DNA of 40,885 nt, taken from positions 1 to 40,885 of the forward strand of contig CAUYTY010000182.1 in the NCBI GenBank assembly GCA_963575655.1, written 5' to 3'. Source of the DNA: Gammaproteobacteria bacterium. Its GTDB lineage: Bacteria > Pseudomonadota > Gammaproteobacteria > CAIRSR01. The notes below the pieces were generated by a model. That model was not told where the DNA came from. It worked only from the letters and a program-made list of their open reading frames with translations, and made no database searches. Numbering within the stretch: position 1 is the first letter of the stretch; each line of letters starts with the position of its first letter. The translations under genes were made by a program, and so were the position numbers. Positions 3,169 to 19,671 of this stretch are shown piece by piece.

Positions 3169-3325
3169 TACCTAACCCAAGTTGCCATCTATTCAAAATT
3201 CGGGATCGCATCCAATCGTCCCCCCTCAATCCCCCCGTAAACGGGGGGAGGTCTGCGGCCTACTCCCTCCCCGTTTACGGGGAGGGCTGGGGAGGGGGTA
3301 AGTAGGTGGCAACTTGGGTTACCTA
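3169..3325. mobile_element. 157-bp MITE-like element with 23-bp terminal inverted repeats
   Basis: Bases 3169-3191 and 3303-3325 are inverted copies of the window's dispersed repeat and differ at three positions. They enclose two G/C-rich hairpins, one around TAAACGG near 3227-3250 and one around GTTTACGG near 3263-3290. There is no ORF. The 180 bases before it (2987-3168) hold nothing I recognise. It lies directly upstream of pdxJ and could affect its transcription. Confidence 0.65.
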
Positions 3326-4752: not shown

Positions 4753-4963
4753 CAGTGTCTCCTGAAAGTTCGGATAGGGGGGTAGTGGTGCGGCCACGAT
4801 GGCCGGGTGCGGCACGAGCCGGTGAGGGATAGCTTACCTTGCGAGCTACCTACAGCAGCCTCCCCCACGCGAGTCCTCGCAATACTCAACTAAGGCGGCG
4901 GAGTGTATCAGATCCTCGCGACCCTCTGAAAACGTATGGTAGTCTCTACTCTCTAGTCAATCA

Positions 4964-5318
4964 CCCTGGGCTAAAGCCAGGGGCTTGTGAAAGCAAGCCC
5001 GAGATTGACCAGCCTTAGTCCGGGAAATCGGACTACGTTGCAACGAAGTACAAGACTCACCTTGGGGCGCTTCCTCAACTCCAAGCTCTGAAAGCAGCAG
5101 AAGCAGACACGCGACGGGTACGCACGAAACGGTCTGCTGCAAGGTTCGCAAGAATCGAAGCTGCGTTGCAACATTGGCGAGGGGAGCCACACCGTAAGGT
5201 GTGCGTCACTAGGCCCTTACGGGCTGACAGCCGGGAAAGACCGGCAACTTTAAAGATTTTGCTATCCAATGGGGCGGAAAAAAACCGTCCCCTTTCCTCC
5301 CCGCCCTCAAGGGCGGGG
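4964..5318 (+). mobile_element. Remnant IS200/IS605-like element carrying only an RNA gene
   Basis: A left palindrome (4964-4969 with 4977-4982, with CTAAAGC in the middle) and a right palindrome (CCCCGCCC at 5299-5306, TCAA loop, GGGCGGGG at 5311-5318) frame the structured RNA at 4979-5248. Such subterminal hairpins are typical of IS200/IS605-superfamily ends, which are recognised by a single-strand transposase. No tnpA, tnpB or iscB reading frame lies inside, so the element is non-autonomous or decayed. The 200 bases before it (4753-4963) hold nothing clear apart from the cytochrome upstream region. Confidence 0.5.
4979..5248 (+). ncRNA. Structured RNA, HEARO/omega-RNA-like, copy 1
   Basis: This stretch shares long near-identical blocks with 10821-11100; for example, 52 bases from 5026 differ at one position. 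Visible stems are AGTCCG/CGGACT (5018-5033), GCAGCAGA (5094-5101) with TCTGCTGC (5133-5140), CACACC-GTAA-GGTGTG (a GNRA tetraloop, near 5188-5203), and GCCGG...CCGGC near the 3' end. Stem bases co-vary with copy 2. The motif order (GACTACGTTGCAACGAAG, CTTGGGGCG, AGCTGCGTTGCAAC, GACAGCCGGGAAAGACCGGC) resembles my memory of HEARO/omega RNA, the guide scaffold of IscB nucleases. The assignment rests on recall, not a model search. The short frames crossing it show no protein-like conservation. Confidence 0.6.
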
Positions 5319-5405
5319 TTTCTCGGGGACACTGATGATCGATAGCACCTACGCTACACCCCATCCTTCCACCCACGCCACATTGTTAATATCAGTTGCA
5401 CAGTG

Positions 5406-10009: not shown

Positions 10010-10546
10010 GTGGACCGTTCATCCCCTTTTGCGTTACTCCATGAGATCGAGTCTCGTGCTCGTACCCACGCCCGAGGTCTACCAAGTCGGGCAGTGGGCA
10101 AAACGACTTGGTCGGGGATCGTCTTTCGTCTGGGTACCCGAGAGTTAGTTACTCCGCTTGGCGAGGTTAACGAGGTATTGGCCTATCCCACGCTCTCGCG
10201 GGTACCTGGTACTCAGTCGTGGGTGAAGGGGATCGCCAACTTTCGCGGTAATCTTCTCCCGGTCATGGACCTGCGTGCCCTATTAGAGGGTACCCCCGTT
10301 GCCCGCGACCGCCGTAACCGGGTCTTGGTGGTCAACCACAAGGGGATTTTCGCCGGATTGTTGGTAGATGAAGTTATTGGTCTCCGCCATTTTCAACAGG
10401 AAGAGCGTAGCCCACTTCCTCCCGCAATAGAGACCTCAATGGCGCTCTACTTTCGGGGTGGATTTGAACGAAACGGGCGATATACCCCAGTGTTCGGACT
10501 GCACGCCCTTGCGGAAAGTCAGGAGTTTATGCAGGTGGCAGCGTAG
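10010..10546 (+). CDS. pilI: CheW-like coupling protein PilI
   Basis: PilI couples the receptor PilJ to the kinase ChpA. The 178-residue protein has a CheW fold: GIVFRLGTRELVTPLGEVNEV, then VPGTQSWVKGIANFRGNLLPVMDL (the conserved RG/N-L-P-V-D-L core), then GLLVDEVIGLRHF. The start is GTG 10010, supported by GGAAGG six bases upstream; no ATG fits as well. It follows pilH by 20 bases. In most relatives pilJ follows at once, but here 647 bases intervene, carrying the second structured RNA. Confidence 0.9.
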   Translation: MDRSSPFALLHEIESRARTHARGLPSRAVGKTTWSGIVFRLGTRELVTPLGEVNEVLAYPTLSRVPGTQSWVKGIANFRGNLLPVMDLRALLEGTPVARDRRNRVLVVNHKGIFAGLLVDEVIGLRHFQQEERSPLPPAIETSMALYFRGGFERNGRYTPVFGLHALAESQEFMQVAA

Positions 10547-10820
10547 TCGATGATTGCAACGTTAGCGTTGTAAGTTGAGTATGGTGTTCCGGGTTAGTAA
10601 AAATTTTTGAAATTGCTTGACCTGCTGTTATTGAAAATAAAAACATCCCAACCAGCGATTCGAATAACCGTTACGCTCGAGGATGTTTCCTTAAGTGATT
10701 TAAGATTTCAATGCGCAACCCCGGTTTAGTTTGTCGAGATCCCTCCATTATAATCAGGTGGCCGGACCCTGCCATGGGGGAAGGATGGAAGTCAAGAATC
10801 TCTCGACCCTATCGGGATCT
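10547..10820 (+). other. pilI-pilJ spacer before the RNA element
   Basis: The stretch has no gene. AAACATCC (10641-10648) pairs exactly with GGATGTTT (10681-10688) around a 32-base loop and could end the pilGHI transcript. Further on comes the TATAAT described separately. Confidence 0.45.
10726..10754 (+). promoter_or_regulatory. Possible promoter before RNA copy 2 / pilJ
   Basis: There is a perfect TATAAT at 10749-10754, with only a weak TTAGTT at 10726-10731, 17 bases away. Its position, about 70 bases before the structured RNA, would suit transcription of that RNA and of pilJ-chpA apart from pilGHI. The weak -35 keeps this tentative. Confidence 0.25.
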
Positions 10821-11100
10821 AGGGGCTTGTGAGGCAAAACTCATAAGCACCCACTTGACCAGCCTAAGTCCAAAGCATCGGACTACGTTGCGACGAAGTA
10901 CAAGACTCACCTTGGGGCGCTTCCTCAATCCCAGGCTCTGAAAGCGGCGGATGCAGACAACCCGGAGGTGGGACGAAACGGTCCGTCGCAAGGTTCAAGA
11001 CATCGAACCAAAGCTGCGTTGCAACATTGGCGAGGAGAGCCACACCGAAAGGTGTGTGTCACTTGGTCAGTGAGGGCTGACAGCCGGGAAAGACTGGCAC
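10821..11100 (+). ncRNA. Structured RNA, HEARO/omega-RNA-like, copy 2
   Basis: This is the second copy of the RNA at 4979-5248, on the same strand. The stem GCGGCGGA (10944-10951) pairs with TCCGTCGC (10982-10989). Against copy 1, two A-T pairs have become G-C on both sides and one G-C has become G-U. The CACACC/GGTGTG stem keeps a GNRA loop but reads GAAA instead of GTAA. The terminal stem is kept as GCCGG/CTGGC. The left palindrome is degenerate here, and the right end is unclear; an ACCCTT/AAGGGT hairpin lies near 11158-11177. No iscB or tnpB frame is attached. It lies between pilI and pilJ and ends about 90 bases before the pilJ start. Confidence 0.6.
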
Positions 11101-11193
11101 CTAATTTAGGCTAAAGCCGCTGGTTTCAGCACCAAAGACAGTGTTTTCTCCCCTCGACCCTTTGGAATCGAAGGGTATCCACGCCGAGGATCT

Positions 11194-13257
11194 ATGAAAG
11201 AAAAGATTGCACAGACCAGGAAAATGGGAACGACCACCAGCCAACCCCTAATCCTTGTATTAATAGTGGTCGTGTTAGCGTTGACCGGGGTCAACTTCTA
11301 TTACGTAGCCGTCAACGAAGGTTACGACGAGCAGTATCGAAATCTGGCCGCCGACCAACGGTTACTCACCCAGCGCCTAGCCAAGGCGGCGCAAGGGGTA
11401 GCCACCAATGGGGGAGGGGAGGCCTTCACCCTGCTCCGGGATAGCCGTGCGCGTTTCGAGCGTAGCCTTGACCTGTTGGAGAAAGGGAATGATGCCACCG
11501 GGCTACCGCCAACCCCTGCGGCTGCGGAGCAGGAATTCGAGGCCGTCAAGCGTCGTTGGATGCAGGCACGTAAGAGTGCCGATCTGATCCTGGCCAGTGC
11601 CCAAGACCTTCAGGCCCTGCGCGATCTCGCTGCGCAGATCCAGGATCAGGTCGTACCCGAGACGATCCGCCGGACGGAGGATCTGATCATGGTGTTGGTG
11701 GAGAAGAGCGCGCCTTCGACACTTATCAACCTCACGGGTCGCCAACGTGTACTTGTCCAACGCATTGCCAACCGCATCGACCGCGTATTGTTGGTAGGTG
11801 GGGCTGCCGCTGCGCGGGCTATCGACGAATCTCGACGTGATATGACGTTGTTCACCCGAGTTATCGATGGCCTTCAAAAGGGCGATGAACTGCTCCAAGT
11901 CAAACCCTTCCAGGACCCCGAAGCCCGCGACAAACTGGCCTCCTTGGCCAAACAGGCCGAGGTACTTAAAGACCTCGTCGATCGTTTTTTGGAAAAGAAA
12001 AACACTCTGTTCAGGATTCAAGACGCTACAACTCAGATCGCTGAACAGAGCGAACTCCTCATGGGAGACTGTTCCAAACTGCTCGACGCCTACGGTCGGC
12101 TTGCTGGTACCCGTTTTATCTCCCCGTTGATTGGCTATCTGTTGGCAGGGATTGTCCTCATTCTGTTGGTGTGGATCGGTACCAGCCTGTTGCGTGATGT
12201 CCGCCATCGCCAGTTGGAGAGTGAAAAACAACAACAGGCTGCTGCCAACACCAGCCGTCGCAACCAGGAGGCGATTCTGCGGTTGCTGGATGAGATTACT
12301 AACCTAGCGGATGGTGACCTCACCGTACACGCTACCGTAAGCGAGGATTTTACCGGGGCCATCGCCGACTCTATCAACTACGCGGTAGACGCTTTGCGTG
12401 ACCTGGTCGCGGCCATCAATACCACCACCGTTCAGGTATCGGGCGCCGCCCAGGAGACCCAGGCCACGGCGATGCACCTTGCCGAGGCCAGTGAGCACCA
12501 AGCCCAGGAAATTCGGCGTGCTAGCGCTACGGTCGACGCCATGGCCCACGCCATGGAGCAGATGGCAACCAAGGCCGATGATGCCGTGGTCGTAGCCCAG
12601 AACTCGGTACGTACGGCCAAGCAGGGTGCCGAGGCCGTGCGTGACACCATCAAGGGGATGGGGGCCATCCGCGACCAGATCCAGGAAACCTCAAAACGTA
12701 TCAAACGCCTTGGTGAATCGTCCCAAGAGATCGGTGAGATCCTGGCGCTTATCAACGATATCTCGGACCAGACCAATATCCTGGCGCTCAATGCCGCGAT
12801 CCAAGCGGCTATGGCCGGCGAGGCCGGACGTGGCTTTGCCGTCGTCGCCGATGAGGTACAGCGCCTTGCGGAACGCGCCGGAAACGCCACCAAGCAGATT
12901 GATGCCCTGGTGCGAACCATCCAAAGCGATACCAACGAGACCGTAATCTCCATGGAAGAAACCACCACTGACGTGGTGCGTGGGGCCAAACTCGCCGAGG
13001 ATGCGGGGAGTGCCCTCTCTGAAATCGACAACGTCTCGGGTCAGCTTGCCGAACTTATCCACCACATCTCTCAATCCGCTCAGGGACAGGTTCGTAGCGC
13101 TGTCCATATCTCGGAGACAATGAACGTCATCCAGGAGATCACGACCCAGACCTCGGCGGGTACTCAGGATACCGCCGCGTCCATTGGTCACTTGGCAGAT
13201 CTCTCCAATGAATTACGACGATCGGTGGCTGGTTTCAAACTGCCGGCGCGCGGATAA
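11194..13257 (+). CDS. pilJ: Type IV pilus chemoreceptor PilJ
   Basis: This is an inner-membrane methyl-accepting chemotaxis protein of 687 residues, near the Pseudomonas PilJ length. The first transmembrane segment is about residues 18-38, the periplasmic helical PilJ-type region about 39-305 (two similar parts, with DQRLLTQRLAKAA and GRQRVLVQRIANRI), and the second transmembrane segment about 311-331. A linker and the signalling domain follow, with the hairpin tip ISDQTNILALNAAIQAAMAG near residue 525. It senses pilin or surface contact in known systems and controls ChpA through PilI. ATG 11194 has GAGGA just upstream. pilK, the methyltransferase usually found next, is absent. Confidence 0.94.
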   Translation: MKEKIAQTRKMGTTTSQPLILVLIVVVLALTGVNFYYVAVNEGYDEQYRNLAADQRLLTQRLAKAAQGVATNGGGEAFTLLRDSRARFERSLDLLEKGNDATGLPPTPAAAEQEFEAVKRRWMQARKSADLILASAQDLQALRDLAAQIQDQVVPETIRRTEDLIMVLVEKSAPSTLINLTGRQRVLVQRIANRIDRVLLVGGAAAARAIDESRRDMTLFTRVIDGLQKGDELLQVKPFQDPEARDKLASLAKQAEVLKDLVDRFLEKKNTLFRIQDATTQIAEQSELLMGDCSKLLDAYGRLAGTRFISPLIGYLLAGIVLILLVWIGTSLLRDVRHRQLESEKQQQAAANTSRRNQEAILRLLDEITNLADGDLTVHATVSEDFTGAIADSINYAVDALRDLVAAINTTTVQVSGAAQETQATAMHLAEASEHQAQEIRRASATVDAMAHAMEQMATKADDAVVVAQNSVRTAKQGAEAVRDTIKGMGAIRDQIQETSKRIKRLGESSQEIGEILALINDISDQTNILALNAAIQAAMAGEAGRGFAVVADEVQRLAERAGNATKQIDALVRTIQSDTNETVISMEETTTDVVRGAKLAEDAGSALSEIDNVSGQLAELIHHISQSAQGQVRSAVHISETMNVIQEITTQTSAGTQDTAASIGHLADLSNELRRSVAGFKLPARG

Positions 13258-13361: not shown

Positions 13362-13449
13362 GGTGTAGCTCTTTTGTGTTCTTTTTTCTTATTCTTATCC
13401 GACCTTTACTCTATTGACTACAATCTTTTCCCGAGGGGAACGGAACGCC

Positions 13450-16400
13450 ATGAACGTAAGTTCCAGGGCCACAGAGCGTACCCCCCTGAGCTGGGTCAAG
13501 GGCGAGATCGACCAGACCCTCAACCGAGCCCAGACGGCCCTTGAGGCCTACGCAGAAAACCCGACCGCGATTCATTCCCTGCGGACCTGTAGCGGTTGCC
13601 TCCACGAAGTTACTGGCACCCTGCGCATTGTGGAGGTGCAGGGGGGCATTCTGCTCTCGGAGGAAATGGAACAACTCGTTGCCGCGCTCATCGCGGGGAG
13701 TGTTGATTCTGGTGCTGCGGAGGTCCTGATGCGAGTCCTCCTTCAGCTTCCTGACTATTTGGAACGCCTGCAGAATGGTGGTCGCGACCTCCCCATCGCG
13801 CTCCTACCCCTCCTCAACGAATTGCGAGCGGTTCGCAATGAAGCTCTTCTCTCCGAGGACCTTGTTTTCTTTCCCGACCTTAGAGCTGTCCCCGCTTTTC
13901 CCCTCCCTGCTCCAGCTTTCGGTGGTGTAGAAAGCATCGCGCGACGAGCGCGTTCCCTGTTTCAGTCGGGATTGGCGGCGTGGTACCGCAATTCTGAGGA
14001 TCGAGAGGCCTTGCGTCGCTTGGGCCAGGCCATGGATCAGCTTCGTGCTACCGCAACCCAGCCTGAGACTACGCGCCTGTGGTGGGTCGGGGCGGGATTG
14101 ATCGAGGCGGTACAAGACAAAGGTGTTGATGTTGCTCCCGCGCGGGCACTGCTCGGCAAACTGGAGCGTCAGATCAAACGCCTCATCGATAAAGGTGAGG
14201 ATGGGATCGTTCTGGATCTACCCGCACCACTGATTCGGCAGATCCTTTATCACATTGCGCGCTCGCGCTCCCACGGGGCATTGGTCGAGGAATTACAGGA
14301 ATCTTTTCGCCTCGACGAGGCTCTGCCAAACGAATCGGATTTAGCGGCTATCCGGGATAGCCTACGGGGGGCCAACCGCGCCGTTATGGCGACCGTTTCC
14401 ATCGCCCTGCACGAAGATCTCACCGGGGTGATGGATTCCTTGGACCTTTTCGTGCGGCGGCGGGACCACAAACTCGCGAATCTACAACCGTTGATCGAAC
14501 GGATTCGTCAGATCGCGGGCACCCTGGCGGTGATTGACCAGGAAGTGGCTCGTAGCGAATTACTGGTGGTATCGGAAACCCTCACCCGCTTAATCGCGGG
14601 TGGCCAGACCCAAGCGGTGGTTGATGACGCCCTTTTGAGTCTGGCGGGTCGCTTGGTACAAGTGGAATCTACCCTAGCCAGTCTCGGTGGGGTCTCTCCG
14701 TCATCGGGTGAAGGCGCCCCGCCGAGTTTTTCTATTGATGATCGACATTTACATCAGGCAGTCATTAAGCAATCGCTTACGAGTTTGGCGCGCGCCAAAG
14801 AGGCTATTGCTACCTTTGTCCAGAATCCCACGCCAGAGGGATTAGAGGGTGCCCAGGTTGCGCTGAATGAGGTATCGGGGGGGCTGACGATCCTGGAGTT
14901 GGACCGTCCCAGCCATCTGGCAACCGCCTGCGCCCAGGTGCTGAAGTCACTCTCCCTGGCCAGTTCTTCGGACCAAAGGGACATCGGGGAGACGCACGAT
15001 CGCTTGGCTGAGGCCATTGCCGCCTTGGAATTCTATCTGGAGGAGCAGGTTCGTTCTCTCTCCGGTGAATCCTTTCTGGCGCAGGGTGAGGCGGCGTTGG
15101 CCGCATTGCCATCGTTGGTGGTGGTGCCATCGCCCTTGCCCTCGGTGGAGCAGGCACCTCTGGTCGAGGAGGCTGTTGTATCATCGGTCGTGGAGTGGGA
15201 ATCCCCACAACCTCTACCTTGTGCGGTTGAGGTCGCGCTCGAGGATGCGATCGAGAATATTGACCTGAGTGCGTCTTTTCCCTATGCCGATCTACCTTCT
15301 CTGTGGGAAGGACTCGAAGAGTCCATCGATCTGTCGATCTCAACATTGGAATCTTCCCAGCATTCGCTCGTCACGGAAGAAGAAAAAGCGGTCGAGGATA
15401 TGGAACTAATCCCGCTTGCCCCCCCGTCAGATCTTTCTCGCTCATGGGAAGGTGATGAATGGGAGATTCCGAGTCTACTCAACGAGGAATCTCCTCCACT
15501 CGCTACCCCCCCTCCTTCCTTCGTCGCGGATTCAACCCCGCAGAAATCAACGGTGGACGACGAGATATTGGAGGTGTTTGCGGAGGAGACCACCGAGGAA
15601 ATGACGGTCCTCGACCGCCATCTCCCCCGGTTGCGAGCGGCCCTGTCCTCCTCAGAGGGTTTTGGCGGTAGAGAAAACGAGGAATCTTTACGTACGGTGC
15701 GCCGCTCCTTCCACACTCTCAAGGGGAGTGGTCGGATGGTAGGCGCCACGCGCCTGGGTGAACTGGCCTGGGCAGTGGAGAACCTGTTCAATCGGGTGAT
15801 TGATGGCACCGTTGCAACCTCTCCCGACCTCCTGGATGTGGCGGAAGATGCTCGCTCGATCCTGCCCGATTTGGTCGAAGACTTTCGTACCGGTAGGTCC
15901 ACGGCTAAGGGAGTAGAGGACATCGCCGAACATGCGTGGCGACTTGCCCACGCTGGACCTGCCGCTCCCGAAAAACTACTCCTTGAGACGGGCGAGTTTG
16001 TTACGCCACCAGAACATGCTCCTCCCGATTACCTCACTGTTGTTACAGAGGAAGAGATCCATCTCGAAGAAGACGCCGACGAAGAAATTACTCTCGTTGC
16101 AGATGATGCGCCTTCCGCGTTAGAGCTTCCCACCGACGATACCGTTACCCACCAGGAGGAAGAAGAACATCCCGCAGAGGGGAGTACCACATCATCGGCG
16201 CTGCCGATGCTGGATCCGATGCTGCTGGACCTGTTCAACACCGAGACCGAGGGTCACTTGGCGGTGGTGGAGGCCACTCTAGCAGCCTGCCGTGGTACGG
16301 GTACCTGCACCATCAGTGATTCTCTGCTGCGCGCCCTTCATACCCTTCAGGGTAGTGCCCGCATGGCCCAGATTGACGGGGTTGCCGTGCTCGGTCGCGC

Positions 16401-19400
16401 CTTGGAACACTATGTCAAGGCGCGGGCGGCCGCATTTCTCCCCCTAAATGAACCCTGCTTCCAGAGGATTGATGCGGGGGTGCTCCTGATCCGGAGCTGG
16501 CTCTCCGCACTCGCCGGTATTGGTCCGATCCCAGACATCAATTCTTGGCTGGTGGAGATCGACGCAGCTAAGGTGGTGCATTCCCCCCAGTCCCCACCAT
16601 CGGTGAAACCGGCGGAATCGCAGGAATCGATCGAGTCGCCCGAGACTGTGGCAACGGAGGGGGTGATCCAACTGTTTCTGGAAGAGGCCGTCGAGACCCT
16701 CAAGACGGGTGAGAGCGTCGTATCGAAATGGCTGGTACAACCGACCGAGGTTACAGCCCTACAACCCCTTCGTCCGATTGTGAACGCCCTCGGTAGTGGC
16801 GCGGAACTCGCTGGTATTCCGGCGATCGCGACCTTGTGCCGTGCCTTGCACGACATTATCGATCGCGCCGTAGCCGAACCAGCCTTGCGTTGCGAAGCCA
16901 CAGTACAGATCTTTTCCGAGGCGATTGAGCGCCTTTGGGTAATGTTGGAGGTGGTCCGTGATTACCAACCCATTGCCCCTCCCGATGATCTATGTACTGC
17001 TCTGGCCGGCCTGATCCAGGCGACTCATTCCCCGTCCGATGTCCAGGAGCAGCCGGCCATACCGACGGTAGTCATCGTCCCCGAGGTCGTACCACCGCCA
17101 GTCTCTCTCTCGTCTGTGGTCCCACCGACGCCTCTCCCTCCTGTAGCACGAGGAGAGCCGGAACGAAGTGATCTGATGGTCATGTTTTTGACCGAGTCGG
17201 AAGACCTCATGGGACACCTGGACAGCCTGCTCCAACAGTTGTCCATTACCCCGAGCAACGCCCTTCTGATGGGGGATCTACGTCGCATCCTCCATACCCT
17301 CAAGGGTGGTGCGCGCATGGTGGGTATCCAGGCGATTGCCGACCTCGCGCACGCCCTGGAATCCATGATCAACACGGTGGTGGACGGTCACCTACCGGCC
17401 ACTCAGCGCCTGTTCGACCTGCTTCAGGTCGCCAGTGACCAATTATCGGAAATGCTCGACCAGGTGCGGGAAGGAGTCCCAGTGGAAGCGGCGATGGACC
17501 TCCACCGTCGCATCGAAAATTTGGTGACGCAACAACTGATCGACCTGGATGCACGTTCTATCCAGGTAATGAGTCAGATCGAGTCGTCGGATCCGGAGCG
17601 TCGTGCCGGTGAAGCAGATGGAAAATATCGAGAAGACAACGCGCCGGAGGGGAGAGAACGCCGCAAGGGGACGGTTGTTGCTCCTGTAAGAGAATTGTCC
17701 GCTCTTACGGTAGAAGAGGGGAGAGAGGGTGATATTGAGGTCGAGGGGGGCTCCCAGGATCGTCGAGCAGCCCCGCACATTGTTCAGGAACAGGTGCGGG
17801 TTGGAGCCGATCTGCTGAACCAATTGGTAAACCATGCCGCAGAGGTGAGCATTACTCGCTCGCGGGTGGATCAACAATTGGCGGGATTGCGTCATAGCCT
17901 CCATGAGATGGCCCAAACCGTGTCGCGCCTGCGTGACCAATGGCGCAAGCTGGAGATCGAGACGGAGGTTCAGATCCTCCATCACCATGAAGAATCGGGA
18001 AATCCCGACTTCGACCCACTGGAGTTAGACCGCTATTCGACCCTGCAACAACTCTCCCGTAGCCTAATGGAGAGTGTGTCCGACCTGTCGAGCCTCCATG
18101 GATTACTTACTGTGGCGACTCGTGATGCTGAAATGTTGCTCTTGCAGCAGTCGCGCATCACCAAGGAACTCCAGGAAGGATTGATGCGGACCCGGATGGT
18201 GCCTTTTGCCGGACTCGCCCAACGCCTGCGTCGGATCGTGCGCCAAACCGCACAAGAATTAAGTGTCCAAGCCGAGTTGCGTCTGGTGGGGGCAGATATC
18301 GAACTCGACCGTACCGTGCTCGACCGTATAGTGGCGCCTCTGGAGCACATGCTGCGCAATGCGATCAGTCATGGCCTTGAACCACCAGCCGAGCGTCGGA
18401 GTATCAGCAAGCCCGAAACTGGCTCGATTACTATCACCTTGCGTCGCGAGGGGCAGGAGGTTGTCATTCTGGCCCGTGACGATGGTCGTGGTTTGAACCT
18501 CGCCGCCATCCGTCGTAAGGCCGAGGAGCGCGGATTGCTTGCCCGTGGTACTCAATTGGCGGACAAGGAGGTAATGCAATTCATCCTGGAGCCCGGTTTT
18601 TCTACCGCAGGTCAGGTCACTCAGATCTCGGGCCGAGGGGTGGGAATGGATGTGGTGCGCAACGAGGTAAAACTACTCGGTGGGTCCCTATCTATCGATT
18701 CTGAGATGGGGCGTAGTACTACCTTCACCATCCGTCTACCGCTTACGTTGGCGGTCAGCAAGGCGTTGCTTGTCTACGTTCAGGGGGATCTATTCGCCAT
18801 CCCGCTGATCACCATCCGGGCGGTGCTCCAGTTGTCCCATGAAGAGGCCAAATCGCTCTACGAAGTGCCTCGTCCGACCTTGATTCGTGGCGGAATAGAT
18901 TACCAATTTATCCATGCCGCTGCCCTTTTGAACGCCACTTCTCCTCCGCGCCATCTTGCCCCTGGTGAGAAATTGCCGGTGTTGCTCTTCGGCATTGGCG
19001 ATCTTAATACCGCTCTAGCCGTGGACAGTCTCCTCGGCGCACGTGAGATTGTGGTCAAATCGGTGGGGCCTCAACTCGGTCGGGTGCGTGAGATATCTGG
19101 GGCCACCATTCTTGGTGATGGTCGAGTCGTTCTCATTCTCGATATGGGGGCACTTATCCGCAAGAGTGTTGCTCTGCACGGGGCGCTGGCGTACGAGGCC
19201 CCGTCGAATCGAACAACCAAGGTCTCGGCAGTATCGGGGATATCGGTGTTGGTGGTGGACGATTCGATTACCGTTCGGAAAGTCACCGCCCGGCTTTTGG
19301 AGCGTCACCACATGACAGTATTCACCGCACGCGACGGTGTAGACGCGGTGGCTTTACTCCAGAAACAGATCCCTGATCTCATCCTCATGGATATTGAAAT

Positions 19401-19671
19401 GCCACGGATGGATGGTTATGAATTGGCTACCTATGTCCGCGGTGAACCACGGTTGCGCAATATTCCGATTATCATGATCACCTCGCGTACTGGCGCCAAA
19501 CACCGTGAGCGTGCTGCGCAGGTAGGGGTAAACCACTATTTAGGAAAACCTTACCAAGAGACGGAATTGTTGGAAGCCATCCATCACCTACGGATACGTC
19601 CCTCGGCCCCTCGCCCGTCCCTTACGACTCGTGAAAGCGAGTCGGGGCGTCCCACGAGAACCAAAAATTGA
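13450..19671 (+). CDS. chpA: Chemosensory histidine kinase ChpA (multi-HPt CheA with receiver)
   Basis: This large CheA-type kinase of 2073 residues phosphorylates PilG and PilH to control type IV pili. The N-terminal part resembles the FimL-like region of ChpA. HPt domains follow: His755 (FHTLKGSGRMVG), His964 (LHTLQGSARMAQ), a degenerate unit with Asn1112 at the His position (IVNALGSGAELAG), and His1282 (LHTLKGGARMVG). Acidic, proline-rich linkers separate them. Next come the kinase domain (N box LEHMLRNAISHGLEPP near 1635; G boxes ARDDGRGLN near 1675 and GRGVGMDVVRNEVK), a CheW domain, and a receiver with Asp1981 (LMDIEMPRMDGYE). ATG 13450 is chosen over TTG 13414 because purine-rich GAGGGGAACGGAA precedes it. 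Pseudomonas ChpA is longer, with more phosphotransfer sites. Confidence 0.94.
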   Translation: MNVSSRATERTPLSWVKGEIDQTLNRAQTALEAYAENPTAIHSLRTCSGCLHEVTGTLRIVEVQGGILLSEEMEQLVAALIAGSVDSGAAEVLMRVLLQLPDYLERLQNGGRDLPIALLPLLNELRAVRNEALLSEDLVFFPDLRAVPAFPLPAPAFGGVESIARRARSLFQSGLAAWYRNSEDREALRRLGQAMDQLRATATQPETTRLWWVGAGLIEAVQDKGVDVAPARALLGKLERQIKRLIDKGEDGIVLDLPAPLIRQILYHIARSRSHGALVEELQESFRLDEALPNESDLAAIRDSLRGANRAVMATVSIALHEDLTGVMDSLDLFVRRRDHKLANLQPLIERIRQIAGTLAVIDQEVARSELLVVSETLTRLIAGGQTQAVVDDALLSLAGRLVQVESTLASLGGVSPSSGEGAPPSFSIDDRHLHQAVIKQSLTSLARAKEAIATFVQNPTPEGLEGAQVALNEVSGGLTILELDRPSHLATACAQVLKSLSLASSSDQRDIGETHDRLAEAIAALEFYLEEQVRSLSGESFLAQGEAALAALPSLVVVPSPLPSVEQAPLVEEAVVSSVVEWESPQPLPCAVEVALEDAIENIDLSASFPYADLPSLWEGLEESIDLSISTLESSQHSLVTEEEKAVEDMELIPLAPPSDLSRSWEGDEWEIPSLLNEESPPLATPPPSFVADSTPQKSTVDDEILEVFAEETTEEMTVLDRHLPRLRAALSSSEGFGGRENEESLRTVRRSFHTLKGSGRMVGATRLGELAWAVENLFNRVIDGTVATSPDLLDVAEDARSILPDLVEDFRTGRSTAKGVEDIAEHAWRLAHAGPAAPEKLLLETGEFVTPPEHAPPDYLTVVTEEEIHLEEDADEEITLVADDAPSALELPTDDTVTHQEEEEHPAEGSTTSSALPMLDPMLLDLFNTETEGHLAVVEATLAACRGTGTCTISDSLLRALHTLQGSARMAQIDGVAVLGRALEHYVKARAAAFLPLNEPCFQRIDAGVLLIRSWLSALAGIGPIPDINSWLVEIDAAKVVHSPQSPPSVKPAESQESIESPETVATEGVIQLFLEEAVETLKTGESVVSKWLVQPTEVTALQPLRPIVNALGSGAELAGIPAIATLCRALHDIIDRAVAEPALRCEATVQIFSEAIERLWVMLEVVRDYQPIAPPDDLCTALAGLIQATHSPSDVQEQPAIPTVVIVPEVVPPPVSLSSVVPPTPLPPVARGEPERSDLMVMFLTESEDLMGHLDSLLQQLSITPSNALLMGDLRRILHTLKGGARMVGIQAIADLAHALESMINTVVDGHLPATQRLFDLLQVASDQLSEMLDQVREGVPVEAAMDLHRRIENLVTQQLIDLDARSIQVMSQIESSDPERRAGEADGKYREDNAPEGRERRKGTVVAPVRELSALTVEEGREGDIEVEGGSQDRRAAPHIVQEQVRVGADLLNQLVNHAAEVSITRSRVDQQLAGLRHSLHEMAQTVSRLRDQWRKLEIETEVQILHHHEESGNPDFDPLELDRYSTLQQLSRSLMESVSDLSSLHGLLTVATRDAEMLLLQQSRITKELQEGLMRTRMVPFAGLAQRLRRIVRQTAQELSVQAELRLVGADIELDRTVLDRIVAPLEHMLRNAISHGLEPPAERRSISKPETGSITITLRREGQEVVILARDDGRGLNLAAIRRKAEERGLLARGTQLADKEVMQFILEPGFSTAGQVTQISGRGVGMDVVRNEVKLLGGSLSIDSEMGRSTTFTIRLPLTLAVSKALLVYVQGDLFAIPLITIRAVLQLSHEEAKSLYEVPRPTLIRGGIDYQFIHAAALLNATSPPRHLAPGEKLPVLLFGIGDLNTALAVDSLLGAREIVVKSVGPQLGRVREISGATILGDGRVVLILDMGALIRKSVALHGALAYEAPSNRTTKVSAVSGISVLVVDDSITVRKVTARLLERHHMTVFTARDGVDAVALLQKQIPDLILMDIEMPRMDGYELATYVRGEPRLRNIPIIMITSRTGAKHRERAAQVGVNHYLGKPYQETELLEAIHHLRIRPSAPRPSLTTRESESGRPTRTKN

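Follow-up and report, generated by a model that had tools for sequence, protein, structure and literature searches.

The window, that is the whole stretch of 40,885 nucleotides that was analysed, corresponds to contig C182 in a draft genome of 4.2 Mb (hereafter the source genome, G000); in a comparison of pilJ, its closest named relatives were assemblies labelled "uncultured Thiotrichales bacterium". The window carries a chemosensory cluster on the + strand in which a CheW-like pilI (10010-10546; Pfam PF01584) is followed by pilJ (11194-13257), which encodes an MCP with PilJ N-terminal and MCP signalling domains (PF13675 and PF00015), and by a chpA-like hybrid kinase gene (13414-19671; Hpt, HATPase, CheW and receiver domains). 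The gene order of the cluster is otherwise intact, with the ChpA-like protein after pilJ. The initial annotation had described the spacing between pilI and pilJ as abnormally wide and had proposed to compare this junction in relatives; the wide spacing holds, since 647 bases separate the two genes here and roughly 50-75 bases, counted from the sequences, do so in two relatives (L064 in G002 and L063 in G003). About 150 extra bases lying at 10547-10740, between pilI and the pilJ leader, are likewise absent from the relatives; this stretch contains the inverted AACATCC...GGATGTT, and the genome search returned no second match to it.

The pilI-pilJ interval contains, on the strand of pilJ as initially annotated, an RNA of the HEARO family, the IscB omegaRNA scaffold (Rfam RF02033; 10791-11045, +), with a score of 95 bits against a gathering score of 83 (E 2e-18, model positions 1-211). 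The segment 10791-11115 folds 6.1 standard deviations below shuffled sequences (z -6.1). The whole element, called copy 2, covers 403 bp (10791-11193, +), from a left end shared with other copies to a right end placed against the ATGA of pilJ, and includes no nuclease or transposase gene. These borders replace those given initially: the start proposed at 10726 falls in host DNA, as 10726-10790 belongs to the host leader, and the gap of about 90 bases between the element and pilJ does not exist, the terminal hairpin extending to 11193, against the start codon. The ungapped repeat similarity between copy 2 and copy 1 ends at 11102, and the element itself continues. In the same way, the TATAAT (10749-10754, +) that had been located about 70 bases ahead of the RNA is found 36 nt before the scaffold, in the host leader. 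Copy 1 (4956-5334, +; 379 bp, row L023), delimited by its HEARO match and by the reading of its right end, is followed by an ATGA at 5335-5338 that is not a gene start. The element had been treated as one of two copies; the source genome holds 69 HEARO matches.

The RNA-guided nuclease IscB has HEARO as its omegaRNA (PMC9755519). Within the family, 109 matches were found in a sister species (G001), 37 in G002 and none in G003, so that the three carrier genomes hold 37-109 matches each, against 0-1 strong match in the other gammaproteobacteria sampled. At E <= 1e-12, HEARO was detected in 9 of the 274 sampled genomes of the class, six of which lie outside the family and have one match each. When the copies are oriented, a variable sequence immediately precedes the constant beginning of the scaffold: the left border is the first scaffold base (GTCAA), and the upstream sequence is unrelated between copies, as expected if the guide comes from the insertion site. 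In young copies the right border reads TTTCTCGGGGACACTG and is followed by host sequence opening with ATGA or GTGA. All of the 70 distinct right junctions read in G000, G001 and G002 show this tetranucleotide (62 ATGA and 8 GTGA); the search motifs were written after the ends had been seen and require [A/G]TGA next, so the 70/70 describes intact copies and is no independent test. A free listing of right ends, made without the motif filter, likewise shows [A/G]TGA. Sixteen copies without a recognisable right end were left out, and decayed ends or other motifs would be missed by this procedure. The 2009 description of HEARO reportedly also places the insertions next to ATGA or GTGA.

The last ~50 bases of the element are predicted to form a two-tier hairpin, with an outer stem of 5-6 pairs, an internal loop and an inner stem. 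The outer stem stays paired through all its sequence classes (GTCCCC/GGGGAC, GTCTCC/GGAGAC, GCCCGC/GCGGGC and GGCGC/GCGCC, and CCTCG/CGAGG in copy 2), and this covariation amounts to 26 cells changed on both sides compared with 8.7 in shuffles, pairing being kept in 83.9% of cells compared with at most 52.2% in slid controls. In copy 2 the hairpin occupies 11152-11189 (+) and stops four bases short of the ATGA (11194-11197, +), which would be at once the target-adjacent motif (TAM) and the opening of pilJ. The 3' arm bears an SD-like tract (GGGGA, GGAGA or, at 11186-11189 of the + strand in copy 2, GAGG) whose distance to the start codon is four to five bases, with weak SD matches in some of the right-end classes of G001. 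This tract is paired in the predicted fold, its unpaired probability being close to 0 both in copy 2 and in L001. The modelled arrangement suggests that the element may bring a substitute SD, and that it carries a working RBS is only plausible; the plain statement that the element carries a working SD was dropped in view of this pairing within the right-end stem, and for the same reason the effect on translation may be one of partial repression.

A nuclease that may use this RNA is encoded elsewhere in the source genome. Four matches to PF14239 were found there, three of them intact (IscB N-terminal domains), compared with the 69 HEARO matches, so that a candidate cognate IscB is available to copy 2 in trans only. 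The intact protein at L120:1049-2287 matches NF040563 (guided_IscB) with 452 bits, aligns to solved IscBs over the RuvC and HNH parts and was matched residue by residue to TbaIscB, and beside it lies the scaffold that most resembles the orphan copies, with 96.5% identity to one of these over 259 nt. For the transposase, PF01797 (Y1, TnpA) gave only weak or short matches in G000, none of them tied to the present copies; HEARO, IscB and TnpA stand side by side in the sister species (G001:C351).

These features can be set beside those of known systems. As in the HEARO/IscB OMEGA system (RF02033), the scaffold scores over the Rfam threshold, a guide would lie directly 5' of it, the TAM side is 3' of the target, and the same genome encodes an intact IscB whose accompanying scaffold is nearly identical; copy 2 differs from that system in its lack of a nuclease gene, its divergence and its position against a start codon. 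The presumed guide of copy 2, 16 nt of host DNA in the pilJ leader (10775-10790, +), agrees in length with the ~16-17 nt of OgeuIscB (PMC9640706). Likewise, the [A/G]TGA after the right end agrees with the NTGA-type TAM preferred by DtIsrB (PMC9581776), and ATGA/GTGA may by analogy be the TAM of the local IscB; unlike IsrB, the intact nuclease has an HNH domain and matches guided_IscB. IStrons (PMC4227781) are IS-type elements that a group I intron splices out; they share with copy 2 the limitation of harm to a host gene, and differ from it in that no splicing is proposed here and tolerance would come from the position in a leader. With its fixed ends, a hairpin near one end and an adjacent fixed tetranucleotide, copy 2 is best read as an IscB-type (HEARO/omegaRNA) element of the IS200/IS605 type, non-autonomous and of some age. 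In 2021 Altae-Tran et al. reportedly described orphan omegaRNAs and non-autonomous derivatives of IS200/IS605 in Ktedonobacter racemifer; the present copies resemble them in being many, short and provided with ends and RNA, without a protein gene.

The position of copy 2 in front of a start codon is a frequent one for these elements. A junction was counted as a gene start when its [A/G]TGA begins a reading frame of 100 codons or more and the upstream frame closes within 60 codons; this was the case for 26 of the 70 junctions, compared with 40 of the 581 [A/G]TGA (7%) that constitute the background, taken from the window only (Fisher p = 5e-11). Of the 27 junctions that open a long frame, a single one is preceded by an open stretch exceeding 60 codons (L181, biotin carboxylase, 89 codons). 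According to family searches, the genes directly behind an element include pdxA, thiG, surA and feoB in G000 and accC-like, ptsI-like and HU genes in G002. Insertion next to ATGA combined with selection against damage within genes would give such a pattern. In the literature searched, no description was found of this placement at start codons or of an SD-bearing right end in such elements.

At pilJ the state before insertion can be reconstructed to some extent. The left flank of copy 2, taken as 40 bases, can be aligned with the 40 bases that precede the ATG of pilJ in G003. The score is 26, and in 2000 shuffles the highest score was 21 and the mean -8; the G002 leader is too diverged for alignment. 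We read the uninterrupted pilJ leader as ...TGGGGGAAGGATGGAA followed directly by ATGA, with a good SD. It follows from the alignment with this relative that the insertion parted the SD tract of pilJ from its ATG: the SD-like AAGGA of the gene itself (10781-10785, +; anti-SD duplex -8.4 kcal/mol) now lies 403 nt farther from the start codon. No other site of the source genome matches the guide plus TAM of copy 2 within 3 mismatches, and the possibility that the guide acts on another site of its own genome was rejected, as only the empty pilJ site matches.

We consider it likely that copy 2 is a non-autonomous IS200/IS605-type IscB-omegaRNA element, steered to start codons by an NTGA-type motif and tolerated at pilJ through the SD-like tract that its hairpin end brings. 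TnpA/IscB machinery supplied in trans would move and maintain such elements; IscB loaded with an omegaRNA would take its guide from the ~16 host bases adjoining the left end, would recognise ATGA as TAM and would cut only alleles without the element, so that its restoration would be favoured. Because an ATGA frequently serves as start codon, the elements that survive selection would in many cases stand between the SD and the ATG of a gene, in the direction of that gene. A host promoter would then transcribe guide and scaffold, and the SD-like tract of the right-end hairpin could keep the gene translatable; pilJ, a motility-sensing gene, is thus probably translated from a transposon-borne leader. 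Of the initial proposals, the tolerated insertion and the presence of a guide-type RNA within an operon both agree with this reading. The kind of element is ordinary, and the place and the number are striking: copy 2 exemplifies guide-RNA elements settling at start codons. The transcription of a guide that lies outside the element and the tolerance of scores of RNA-guided elements are questions of OMEGA biology for which the present genome suits a test: many near-identical copies stand at start codons, some of them of core genes, where the leader of the gene would supply the guide and the element end contains an SD-like tract.

The retained RNA structure had been taken as an argument against plain decay, and it bears on the strongest rival, in which the same insertion has left a silent and drifting RNA whose fold reflects limited age. 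Between copy 2 and copy 1, 29 substitutions fall at 130 paired positions and break 7 pairs; random placement breaks 16.2, and in none of 5000 trials did the number fall this low. Both partners have changed in 5 pairs, for which the expectation is 1.5 (P 0.006). Part of the breakage in copy 2 concerns a hairpin that this copy forms in another register, as shown by comparison of the folds. Eighteen changes are private to copy 2; among them, two pairs in which both bases changed remain paired, and in one case a double change disrupts the pair. As judged from these present-day copies and private changes, the RNA structure was constrained during the history of the RNA of copy 2, and most of the structural signal may predate the pilJ insertion. 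The earlier argument therefore stands in part: the low number of broken pairs supports it, and the private changes, few of them compensated, do not. A plain relic would be consistent with the ~78% identity of copy 2 to its nearest relatives, its long branch, the loss of the two innermost pairs of its first stem and the weakness of its right-end hairpin (-16.9 kcal/mol compared with ~-32 for the commonest right ends). It accords poorly with the small number of broken pairs, with a match still above the gathering score and with the position on the coding strand of an operon-like row of genes, where read-through is expected; we hold this explanation to be possible, on balance doubtful.

A stronger version of the preferred reading, which we think rather unlikely, regards copy 2 as an omegaRNA element that homes to start codons: its ATGA motif would direct it to the interval separating the SD of a gene from the start codon, in the orientation of that gene, the host promoter making the guide RNA and the hairpin serving as a replacement, possibly regulated, RBS. 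If it were true, dozens of host genes, core genes included, would have gained a common IscB-linked leader.

In the sister species, the same pilJ start codon is preceded by a right-end remnant only, which shares 85% identity with a subfamily of that species (L191, L171b) distinct from copy 2. The pilJ genes of the two species differ by ~1.06 substitutions per four-fold site, and with such a divergence an 85%-identical remnant makes independent insertions at the same ATGA more likely. The opposite view, that the element predates the separation of G000 and G001 and was kept under long-term selection at this site, is in our opinion improbable; the right end found at the pilJ start in both species would fit it, but an unconstrained remnant of that age should be far more eroded, and no other shared site was seen among the sampled copies. 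Shared ancestry was accordingly judged unlikely on the four-fold divergence.

The same comparison bears on the proposed regulation of pilJ. The HEARO RNA is absent from pilJ in G002 and G003, and since G001 keeps only the tail of the element there, whichever way this tail arose, the RNA is dispensable for pilJ in the genus. The suggestion of a new promoter found no support, the search for a sigma-70-type promoter on the + strand at 10440-11300 having returned none and the TATAAT of the host leader having no -35 partner. A dedicated regulator of pilJ is not supported, because the guide fits the empty pilJ site only, the TATAAT stands without a -35 and G001 has the tail only. Tuning of pilJ-chpA in cis, also suggested earlier, would be conceivable only as a by-product of the SD moved by 403 nt and of the hairpin partly covering the new tract, and not as an evolved role. 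A domesticated cis-regulator, in which the RNA (with or without IscB) or the right-end hairpin tunes the translation or transcription of pilJ-chpA, could appeal to stems better preserved than random substitution permits, to the stable fold, to the hairpin over the SD-like tract and to an element end at the same start codon in two species, but is very improbable given the sister species with a tail and no RNA, the few private compensated changes, the missing + strand promoter and an arrangement repeated at many unrelated start codons, with nothing specific to pilJ.

Finally, several other repeats and HEARO classes were observed. The window contains, at 34-261 and 3279-3325, a further dispersed repeat with the core TAGGTGGCAACTTGGGTTA, which has 369 matches in G000, 68 in G001, 140 in G002 and 0 in G003 (at most 1 mismatch); many of them lie at contig ends, some HEARO copies are flanked by it (e.g. 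L120), and the repeat and HEARO are alike missing from G003. A right part of another kind, ...GGAGGTTTCCGATAAGGTCTATT, is common to three HEARO copies of the source genome, L059 (C222:19244), L060 (C195:92957) and L017 (C186:36405), which showed no canonical right end. In G001, L163-L165 represent a further class with a different end hairpin (GCAACGC...GCGATTGCGGGG), whose junctions were left out of the junction statistics. A second, diverged HEARO subfamily is present in G000 with ~20 matches of 44-55 bits (e.g. C186:20632 and C195:20996), and two of its copies adjoin an IscB of ~466 aa (L128).
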